Assembly: GCA_026195905.1 (NCBI GenBank)
Contig: JAPHRE010000026.1
Span: 1-64,000 of the forward strand
Reading direction: 5' to 3'
From: Pseudopelagicola sp.
GTDB taxonomy: Bacteria; Pseudomonadota; Alphaproteobacteria; Rhodobacterales; Rhodobacteraceae
Length of the DNA: 64,000 nt
Below, one piece after another: positions 34,513 to 38,070 of this stretch. A program made the translations under genes and the position numbers. The notes under the pieces were generated by a model, which saw only the letters and a program-made list of their open reading frames with translations, did not search any database and was not told the DNA's origin. How positions within the stretch are numbered: the first letter of the stretch is position 1; each line of letters begins with the position of its first letter.

Positions 34513-35649
<1,137 letters not shown>

Positions 35650-35835: not shown

Positions 35836-35927
35836 GGCAATTCGGCTCATTTTGCCAAATTCCACGGAATTGCCTTTCTTTTTTCTTTTCTGCGACTGCA
35901 AAATATGCAATGCGTTCACCCGTGAAC
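35836..35927 (+). promoter_or_regulatory. Operator-like palindromes upstream of the HTH-sulfurylase gene
   Basis: Two perfect palindromes with two-base centres lie here: AATTCCACGGAATT at 35858-35871 and GTTCACCCGTGAAC at 35914-35927. The second extends to TGnGTTCACCCGTGAACnCA and lies 18 bases before the start codon. In addition GGCAATTC (35836-35843) and GAATTGCC (35867-35874) form a wider inverted repeat. The layout suits autoregulation by the HTH domain encoded just downstream. Confidence 0.6.
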
Positions 35928-35945: not shown

Positions 35946-38024
35946 ATGTCCACGCCCGAGCCAAATCTAAACCCGGAAGAGGAAGACCAACTCTTTCGCC
36001 TTCTGCGTCAGCTTGACCTGACGCCGGACGCGTCTCAGCGGGCAATAGCGGCGGCTTTGGGGGTTTCCCTTGGGCGTTTGAACGCTCAGCTTCGTTCGGC
36101 CGCCGACATTGGCTTGATCAAGATCACCGAACGCGTCGGGCCGGATAAACGCCAACGTTTTGCCTACGCGCTCACAACACGAGGCGGTGCAGAAAAAACC
36201 CGCCTTGCCGACCAATTTCTCGCCCGAAAATTCGACGAATATGACGCGCTCCACGCCGAATTGACCGGCACAACCAGTGGCCTCGTCCCCTTCAAATACA
36301 GGACCAAACTCATGCAGAATAACCTTGCGCCTATCACCGAGCTTTATGTGTCGTATGACAGCGCCCAGAAACTCAAAGTTGAAGCCGCCGATCTGGTGAG
36401 CCATGATCTGACACCGCGTCAGATCTGTGACCTTGAACTGCTGATGAACGGCGGGTTCAACCCGCTCAAAGGGTTCCTGTCCGAAGCGGATTATAACGGC
36501 GTCGTCGAAAACATGCGCCTTGCCGATGGGCAGCTTTGGCCAATGCCGATCACGCTCGACGTGTCCGAAACATTCGCGCAAGAAATCGAGATCGGGCAGG
36601 ATATTGCCCTGCGCGATCAAGAGGGCGTCATTCTTGCCACGATGACCGTCACAGACCGCTGGACCCCGAACAAAGCGCGCGAGGCCGAAAAGGTCTTTGG
36701 TGCCGATGACGACGCGCATCCGGCCGTCAACTACCTGCACAATCAGGCGGGCAAGATCTATCTGGGTGGCCCCATCACCGGCATCCAGCAGCCCGTCCAT
36801 TACGATTTCCGCGGTCGTCGCGATACACCCAACGAGCTGCGCGCCTATTTTCGCAAGCTGGGCTGGCGCAAGGTTGTGGCGTTCCAAACCCGCAATCCGC
36901 TCCACCGTGCCCATCAGGAGCTTACATTCCGCGCCGCCAAAGAAGCACAGGCCAACCTGCTTATTCATCCCGTTGTCGGCATGACCAAGCCGGGCGACGT
37001 TGACCACTTTACCCGTGTGCGCTGTTACGAGGCGGTTCTCGACAAATACCCAAGCTCGACCACCACGATGTCGCTTCTGAATCTCGCCATGCGTATGGCA
37101 GGTCCGCGCGAGGCCGTCTGGCACGGGCTTATCCGCAAGAACCACGGCTGCACGCATTTCATTGTTGGCCGCGATCATGCCGGTCCGGGCAAGAATTCGG
37201 CGGGCGAAGATTTTTATGGCCCCTACGACGCACAAGAATTGTTCCGCGCCCACCAAGAGGAAATCGGCATCGAAATGGTCGATTTCAAACATATGGTTTA
37301 TGTGCAGGAACGCGCCCAATACGAAGCCATTGACGAGATCGCCGACAAGGACGATGTCACCATTCTTAACATCTCCGGCACAGAGCTGCGTCGCCGCCTC
37401 TCGGAAGGCCTTGAGATTCCCGACTGGTTCTCTTTCCCCGAAGTCGTCTCTGAGCTTCGCAAGACGCGGCCGCCGCGCTCCAAGCAGGGGTTTACCGTCT
37501 TCTTTACCGGCTTTTCTGGATCGGGCAAATCGACCATCGCCAACGCTCTTATGGTCAAGCTGATGGAGATGGGCGGGCGCCCGGTGACGCTTCTTGATGG
37601 GGATATCGTGCGTAAGAACCTCAGCTCGGAACTTGGCTTTTCGAAAGAGCATCGTGATTTGAACATTCGCCGGATTGGCTATGTCGCATCGGAAATTACC
37701 AAGAACGGCGGTATCGCCATCTGTGCTCCGATTGCGCCCTATGCCGCGACCCGTCGCGCGGTGCGCGAAGATGTCGAGCAATTTGGAGCCTTCATCGAAG
37801 TCCACGTCGCAACCTCGATTGAGGAATGCGAACGCCGGGACCGCAAGGGGCTTTATAAGCTGGCGCGTGAAGGGAAGATCAAGGAATTTACCGGGATTTC
37901 AGACCCTTATGACATCCCCGCAACGCCGGAACTGCGCGTTGAGACCGAAAATGTCGATGTCGACAACTGCGCGCATCAGGTCATCCTCAAACTTGAGAGC
38001 ATGGGCCTGATCGCCGCGCACTAA
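35946..38024 (+). CDS. cysC: MarR-type HTH domain joined to ATP sulfurylase/APS kinase
   Basis: This is a single open frame of 692 residues. Residues 10-108 match the MarR-family EPS-associated regulators (SQRAIAAALGVSLGRLN, then RFAYALTTRGGAEKTRL and FLARKFDEYDALHAEL). Residues 123-692 form the usual bifunctional enzyme of Rhodobacterales: ATP sulfurylase (QTRNPLHRAH, GRDHAGPG) then APS kinase (FTGFSGSGKST). It makes APS and PAPS from sulfate. An ATG at 36312 (residue 123), preceded by ACAGGACCAAACTC, could start a separate enzyme. So it is either a true fusion or two genes in the same frame with no stop between. The gene symbol cysC covers the kinase part; the sulfurylase part is sat-like. 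Confidence 0.85.
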   Translation: MSTPEPNLNPEEEDQLFRLLRQLDLTPDASQRAIAAALGVSLGRLNAQLRSAADIGLIKITERVGPDKRQRFAYALTTRGGAEKTRLADQFLARKFDEYDALHAELTGTTSGLVPFKYRTKLMQNNLAPITELYVSYDSAQKLKVEAADLVSHDLTPRQICDLELLMNGGFNPLKGFLSEADYNGVVENMRLADGQLWPMPITLDVSETFAQEIEIGQDIALRDQEGVILATMTVTDRWTPNKAREAEKVFGADDDAHPAVNYLHNQAGKIYLGGPITGIQQPVHYDFRGRRDTPNELRAYFRKLGWRKVVAFQTRNPLHRAHQELTFRAAKEAQANLLIHPVVGMTKPGDVDHFTRVRCYEAVLDKYPSSTTTMSLLNLAMRMAGPREAVWHGLIRKNHGCTHFIVGRDHAGPGKNSAGEDFYGPYDAQELFRAHQEEIGIEMVDFKHMVYVQERAQYEAIDEIADKDDVTILNISGTELRRRLSEGLEIPDWFSFPEVVSELRKTRPPRSKQGFTVFFTGFSGSGKSTIANALMVKLMEMGGRPVTLLDGDIVRKNLSSELGFSKEHRDLNIRRIGYVASEITKNGGIAICAPIAPYAATRRAVREDVEQFGAFIEVHVATSIEECERRDRKGLYKLAREGKIKEFTGISDPYDIPATPELRVETENVDVDNCAHQVILKLESMGLIAAH
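36312..38024 (+). other. Alternative internal start for a stand-alone sulfurylase/APS kinase
   Basis: The ATG at 36312 would give the 570-residue length usual for the bifunctional enzyme. AGGA lies about ten bases upstream, a reasonable ribosome site. If used, the first 122 codons would either be read through as a fusion or serve as a regulator whose stop codon is missing. Confidence 0.5.
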
Positions 38025-38041: not shown

Positions 38042-38070
38042 AAAAGCCGCCTCTCGGGGGCGGCTTTTTC
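38042..38070 (+). terminator. Rho-independent terminator of the sulfurylase gene
   Basis: AAAAGCCGCC and GGCGGCTTTTT form a strong stem around a TCTCGGG loop, 18 bases after the stop codon. A T run follows. Confidence 0.9.

Follow-up and report, generated by a model that had tools for sequence, protein, structure and literature searches.

Based on the comparison of sequences from related genomes, we propose that in many Roseobacter-related marine bacteria a sulfate-activating enzyme probably steers its own production by means of an attached DNA-binding domain. The gene lies in the window, by which we mean the whole 64,000-nucleotide stretch of DNA analyzed here, and codes for a 692-residue HTH-ATP sulfurylase-APS kinase protein, hereafter the long form (35946-38024, plus strand). 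We consider it quite likely that the product is an autoregulatory trigger enzyme, in which one gene supplies both a 692-residue repressor-enzyme and a 570-residue enzyme, with the long form bound to an operator. In addition to the architecture itself, the analysis yields a candidate regulator together with the site that it likely uses as operator, predicts a second form of the protein and points to a set of natural knock-outs, namely the unfused relatives and one gene with a broken HTH domain.

The reading frame contains no stop across its 692 codons, and domain searches divide it into a MarR_EPS-like winged-helix domain (residues 12-107; 35979-36266, plus strand), PUA-like and ATP sulfurylase domains (residues 130-506; 36333-37463, plus strand) and an APS kinase domain (residues 514-665; 37485-37940, plus strand; PF01583). 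Within the middle part Pfam separates PUA_2 (PF14306) at residues 130-281 from ATP-sulfurylase (PF01747) at residues 292-506. Residues 121-690 are matched by the bifunctional SAT/APS kinase model NF004040 with 1048.4 bits, against a cut-off of 669, and with model positions 4-571 of 572 covered. The protein further contains the sequences QTRNPLHRAHQ and GFSGSGKST, the latter a P-loop, and we take the two together as pointing to the predicted formation of APS and PAPS. By sequence, the catalytic and DNA-binding domains share one polypeptide.

For the N-terminal region, the Pfam HTH_24 model matches residues 15-59 with 26.9 bits, above its cut-off of 21.9, and TIGR04176 (MarR_EPS) matches residues 12-107 with 81.7 bits in the NCBIfam search of the whole protein, 85.9 bits in the genome search and 86.3 bits for residues 1-122 alone, all below the cut-off of 88. 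In the search of the family genomes seven fused relatives exceed this cut-off, and, going by the scores, the HTH domain of the window is a close relative of the TIGR04176 family that falls slightly under the family threshold. The predicted structure of residues 1-122 (pLDDT 86.3) is a winged helix with a long C-terminal helix at residues 78-107, and its best Foldseek matches are MarR-family chains (E of about 1e-4, TM of about 0.5-0.6), with Sso10a-2 also among them. As judged from this model, the HTH part is a MarR-type winged-helix fold; the AlphaFold model of the full-length protein is poor (pLDDT 50.1), and the structural reading rests on residues 1-122. Upstream of the ATG at 35946 the nearest in-frame stop in the window lies 42 codons away, and alternative starts are found at codons -40, -12 and -8. 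We regard a start near 35946 as credible, if not certain, because 89 of the 108 fused loci described below (a set that includes the window) have an in-frame stop no more than 10 codons ahead of the chosen start.

The comparison of the locus in related genomes, which the original prediction had put forward as a check, finds the fusion kept in one open frame. Among 110 aligned enzyme loci, which were picked by similarity so that the proportion is not a frequency, 108 join the MarR_EPS-like winged helix, the ATP sulfurylase and the APS kinase in a single frame without a stop; the sample was drawn from loci with a long enzyme match, 28 fused and two unfused at the outset and then 80 more fused. 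When compared over codons 12-690, 101 of the 108 fused genes are distinct. Together with the open frame and the domain matches, this bears out the claim that the 692-codon combination of HTH and sulfate-activation domains is real. A survey of 394 family genomes, in which a match was counted as fused if it began at query residue 12 or before, found the fusion in at least 88 genomes, and many other rows among the matches listed are the 570-residue enzyme alone; among the matches listed from a further survey, which took in 289 genomes of the class, fused rows are confined to the genus of the window. Two further loci had been flagged for stops (L112 and L113, in G345 and G284), which proved to be merely upstream and terminal; both are ordinary fusions, and L131 is likewise fused.

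We then examined the DNA before the gene, where the palindrome GTTCACCCGTGAAC (35914-35927, unstranded) is, from the comparison of loci, our proposed operator of the HTH domain. The pattern GTTCA-N4-TGAAC is present between -250 and +30 of the start in 106 of the 108 fused loci (99 of the 101 distinct genes), and its position is -34 to -32 in 69 of these 106. All 108 of its occurrences in the 1.23 Mb of locus DNA fall within this same interval, and the additional fused loci L112, L113 and L131 have one palindrome each. As for the two fused loci that lack an exact site, L095 holds a variant and L065 ends at the end of its contig. Conversely, none of 37 unfused loci (17 from the first set, 17 from the family and three outgroups) has the palindrome. 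In several loci a second, degenerate copy further upstream is discernible by eye. An RNA hairpin in place of a DNA operator was also considered and is not favored: the arms are invariant, the center is variable, and the distance to the free-standing genes discussed below varies.

A weaker feature on the plus strand (35885-35912) consists of a conserved CTTTTC (35885-35890) and TG..ATG (35906-35912), possibly a -35 element and an extended -10. When columns are anchored on the palindrome in 106 loci, the conserved stretches are CTTT from -29 to -26 and TG..ATG from -8 to -2, and a scan for consensus promoters found no promoter. Were these columns promoter elements, the palindrome would, at a guess, cover the transcription start. 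At the other end of the gene, directly 3' of it, lies a terminator-like stem-loop (38042-38068), which the scan reports on the minus strand; the region holds four such sites, no more than the 3.4 or so expected from shuffles, so that this candidate is weak, and the palindrome itself is one of them, again on the minus strand.

The relationship between domain and palindrome was placed on a DNA tree of 85 enzyme genes, comprising 46 of the 111 fused genes, 34 unfused genes, one broken gene, one divergent gene and three outgroups; L095 and L065, the fused loci without an exact site, are absent from it. On this tree, which was built by a quick method, leaves 23 of its 82 inner branches open and has long outgroup branches, all 10 independent pairs on supported branches show HTH and palindrome changing in step (two-sided sign test, p 0.002), and a reversed control palindrome occurs in none of 82 tree rows. 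The original prediction that a DNA-binding enzyme of sulfate activation may control its own gene is thereby strengthened, in that the palindrome comes and goes with the HTH domain. The tree requires at least 10 changes on supported (starred) branches and 20-21 overall, and since its deepest rows are fused it suggests an old fusion followed by repeated loss; it does not settle the direction of change, and transfer may have played a part.

Two of the tree genes are informative exceptions. In L118 (G205:C81:4500-7600), from a genome that is 80% complete, only the second half of the HTH domain is left, spread over two frames with three stops, and no palindrome is present, yet the AGGA..ATG signal discussed below and the whole enzyme are intact; this looks like domain loss in progress. 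In L128 (G343:C156:1200-4300) a diverged MarR_EPS-type HTH domain (65.6 bits) is fused in frame via a longer linker and is accompanied by two palindromes, with an AGAGGA ahead of its ATGACCATG; the gene is scored as lacking AGGA in the count over tree rows since that count looked before the second ATG. L128 may have arisen by a separate fusion, or its fusion may be old and much diverged. Outside the family, a sulfurylase/kinase homologue lies within a 1101-codon open frame (L193; G647:C3:373300-377200); the translation upstream gives no match to an HTH and resembles a frame that is open by chance in high-GC DNA.

Given the co-occurrence of domain and site, we infer that the winged-helix domain of the long form would bind GTTCA-N4-TGAAC before its own gene and that, when bound, it would repress that gene. 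Enzymes of this kind form dimers or hexamers, which would bring two HTH domains together. Repression seems likelier than activation, and the closeness of the palindrome to the start codon is a better fit to it. A different reading, which we think unlikely though it fares best among the alternatives, makes the fused domain an activator of its own gene or has it act chiefly elsewhere, for instance at EPS loci with free-standing MarR_EPS genes that bear the palindrome. Counting fused genes, 30 of 149 family genomes have TIGR04176 matches that exceed the cut-off. Of 23 free-standing MarR_EPS genes, 10 have the palindrome within the 300 bases before them, at -62 to -140, which gives independent support to the site in the main reading and also lends the different reading some force (the 23 remain from 25 free-standing loci, 11 with the site, after removal of L168, the same gene as L002, and of L143, which was found through the motif). 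Among palindromes with 5-base arms and gaps of 0-10, GTTCA-N4-TGAAC is the commonest before free-standing MarR_EPS genes, and L174 has a further copy at -295. Before the remaining 13 of the 23, the paralogue in the genome of the window included, the exact palindrome is absent. In an alignment of 21 free-standing rows (A2) the palindrome accompanies N at the position of N46 in eight of 12 rows, H in one of eight and Y in none of one, a comparison made post hoc. We propose GTTCA-N4-TGAAC as the putative site bound by some members of the MarR_EPS regulator family. The locus set aside above, L143 (G023:C9), has its palindrome at about 1500-1513, 116 bases before a free-standing MarR_EPS gene that runs from about 1617 and adjoins glycan genes; the same genome carries the fusion, a further point for the reading of action elsewhere, and cross-talk between its fused and free-standing regulators is possible.

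Against a principal role elsewhere stands the distribution of sites in the genome of the window itself (3.06 Mb), which has two exact sites, the second within an unrelated ORF, and none in two other sulfur or EPS stretches that were examined (C70 as a whole and C51:6000-14000). A many-gene regulon in this genome is for the same reason set aside. Furthermore, the palindrome has been lost on the tree wherever the enzyme has lost its HTH domain. Other genomes of the genus have two to eight exact sites each, the fused gene's own included, versus zero to five for the reversed control, and the gene need not be the sole target of the fused domain. The suggested tie to polysaccharide sulfation found no support: the genome of the window has no match to Sulfotransfer_3, the one sulfotransferase family searched. 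On C70 of this genome, outside the window (L213, 878-2124), a free-standing MarR_EPS gene is directly followed by a second cysH-type reductase and then by a UDP-sugar dehydrogenase. No cysH is found near the free-standing MarR_EPS genes of L163-L167, L169-L185 and L143 within flanks of up to about 1.5 kb, and a general link of such genes to cysH was dropped, the arrangement being seen in the genome of the window only among the loci examined.

The second element of the proposed trigger enzyme is a shorter product. Unfused relatives begin at the place equivalent to codon 123 of the fused gene, and there the linker contains a conserved internal ribosome binding site, AGGA (36300-36303), followed by an ATG (36312-36314; together 36300-36314, plus strand). 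Based on NF004040 and the unfused relatives, the predicted short form is a 570-residue bifunctional sulfate adenylyltransferase/adenylylsulfate kinase (36312-38024, plus strand). Within this linker, which is variable, all 108 rows have AGG at codon 119 and A as the first base of codon 120, where the encoded residue varies (Thr 94, Asn 7, Ser 5, Met 2). At codon 123, 102 rows have ATG and six have GTG, and the alignment has no gaps between codons 119 and 123, the spacing being fixed. The 101 distinct genes give the same picture (AGG in 101, A next in 101, ATG in 95 and GTG in six). AGG is rare in these genes, accounting for 35 of 5522 other Arg codons, and codon 119 is the only AGG-only position among the 37 with Arg in at least 106 rows. 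Likewise, a start codon recurs in at least 90 rows at 15 positions, and of these codon 123 alone has an SD-like word (AGGA, GGAG or GAGG) before it in all rows, the runner-up having one in 17 of 108. At the main start such a word is present in two of 108 loci and a weaker GAG, GGA or AGG in 85 of 108. Pairing with the anti-SD is stronger for the internal SD than for the main leader in 104 of 108 (means -4.21 versus -2.07); random in-frame positions average -2.66 with a standard deviation of 2.44, and the value for the internal start is within that spread. The pairing energy by itself is hence unexceptional, and the conservation of the signal is what is exceptional. AGGA stands ahead of the enzyme start in 46 of 46 fused tree rows versus one of 34 unfused rows, and the internal signal is therefore not simply the inherited SD of the enzyme. 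The idea that two genes share one frame, with a start at 36312, thus survives in part: the start signal is there in 108 of 108, and it marks a second start within one gene, with no second gene.

That unexceptional energy, the rarity of AGG and the position of the signal at a domain border are all compatible with a slightly less probable alternative to the one just weighed, in which the long form is the only product and some other cause, such as a rare-codon pause between folding domains, has preserved the AGGA and ATG at codons 119-123. A pause, however, needs the rare codon only, and would not call for a following A in 108 of 108 across four different residues, a fixed spacing and a codon 123 limited to ATG and GTG. 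L118, whose HTH domain is broken, moreover retains an intact enzyme behind the same AGGA..ATG signal. Under the trigger-enzyme model, the conserved signal suggests that a second ribosome start at codon 123 would yield the 570-residue enzyme without the HTH domain, and the two products would uncouple catalytic capacity from repressor dose. The catalytic state of the fused enzyme, through sulfate, APS, PAPS or ATP, would probably tune DNA binding, or the tuning would come from the mixture of long with short subunits in an oligomer. A fuller version of the model, which we advance tentatively as slightly more apt to be wrong than right, holds that the single gene with its internal start sets the ratio of DNA-binding to plain subunits, and that mixed oligomers read enzyme activity or the level of APS or PAPS and feed back on the gene; throughout a large lineage of marine bacteria the arrangement would be a self-contained substitute for a dedicated repressor of sulfate assimilation, and it would have repeatedly been lost along with the operator.

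Uncorrected pN/pS ratios from 400 random pairs, with pS of 0.58-0.68 near saturation, are 0.08 for the APS kinase, 0.13 for the sulfurylase, 0.28 for the HTH domain and 0.49 for the linker, and on this evidence the HTH part is under purifying selection. Residues invariant in 108 rows include R32, S41, L42, G43, N46, D67, R69, R71 and Y74. That the domain is a non-regulating structural appendage of the enzyme, as could be argued from unfused relatives that manage without it and from a TIGR04176 score slightly below the cut-off, is very improbable given that 106 of 108 fused genes keep the palindrome and all 37 unfused ones lack it, and given the invariance of the HTH helix residues S41, L42, G43 and N46. 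The remaining alternative is a lost stop or one-base error, or any other fault of sequencing or assembly that joined two genes; we found nothing in its favor and reject it as having a negligible chance: 108 of 110 aligned loci are fused without a stop, in an identical arrangement in 101 distinct genes.

Metabolic enzymes that bind DNA and control genes are termed trigger enzymes in the available parts of two accounts (PMC8249747, PMC6978683), the former of which names BirA, NadR, PepA, PutA and PyrH from E. coli. None of the examples covered in those parts of PMC8249747 and PMC6978683, BirA, PutA and PepA among them, concerns sulfate activation. The window gene further differs from these in its conserved signal, which would give a second product that lacks the DNA-binding domain. 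The closest parallel is NadR of Enterobacterales, in which, as in the window protein, an N-terminal HTH repressor domain is followed by a nucleotidyltransferase and then a kinase; there these are NMN adenylyltransferase and ribosylnicotinamide kinase, and most orthologues outside one lineage are without the HTH domain (PMC12421817, in the portion available). Patchy presence of the HTH domain is thus common to NadR orthologues and the relatives of the window enzyme. The enzymes, the pathway and the HTH family are all different, and NadR represses several genes according to the same portion of PMC12421817, whereas for the window protein only its own gene is supported as a target. No NadR model is among the matches listed (25 of 26 for NCBIfam, 20 for Pfam, E up to 1), and the likeness, as far as these comparisons go, is one of architecture only.

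With respect to its component families, residues 121-690 of the window protein match the full NF004040 model, and the gene adds to such enzymes 122 N-terminal residues with the HTH domain, the upstream palindrome and the internal start. Its HTH domain resembles the TIGR04176 regulators in sequence, in modelled fold and, for part of that family, in the upstream palindrome, and differs from them in being fused to an enzyme. In the open-access literature we found no published HTH-sulfurylase fusion and nothing on the control of sulfate activation in roseobacters; the available parts of PMC10599003 and PMC8007912 merely mention a gene or a modified protein by the MarR_EPS family name, and in that of PMC5343134 the single mention of sulfate is in the acknowledgements. 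If the proposal is correct, sulfate activation would become another pathway in the charge of a DNA-binding enzyme, one built along the same lines as NadR, and the gene would offer a comparative case of two conserved starts in one gene separating a regulator from an enzyme. Lastly, with regard to gene neighborhoods, a thioredoxin reductase gene (34705-35649) lies just upstream of the fused gene in the window, and nearly all long fused loci (70 of 71) have a trxB-like match as well, the end of which is less than 1.5 kb away from the gene, on its upstream side, in 44 of them.
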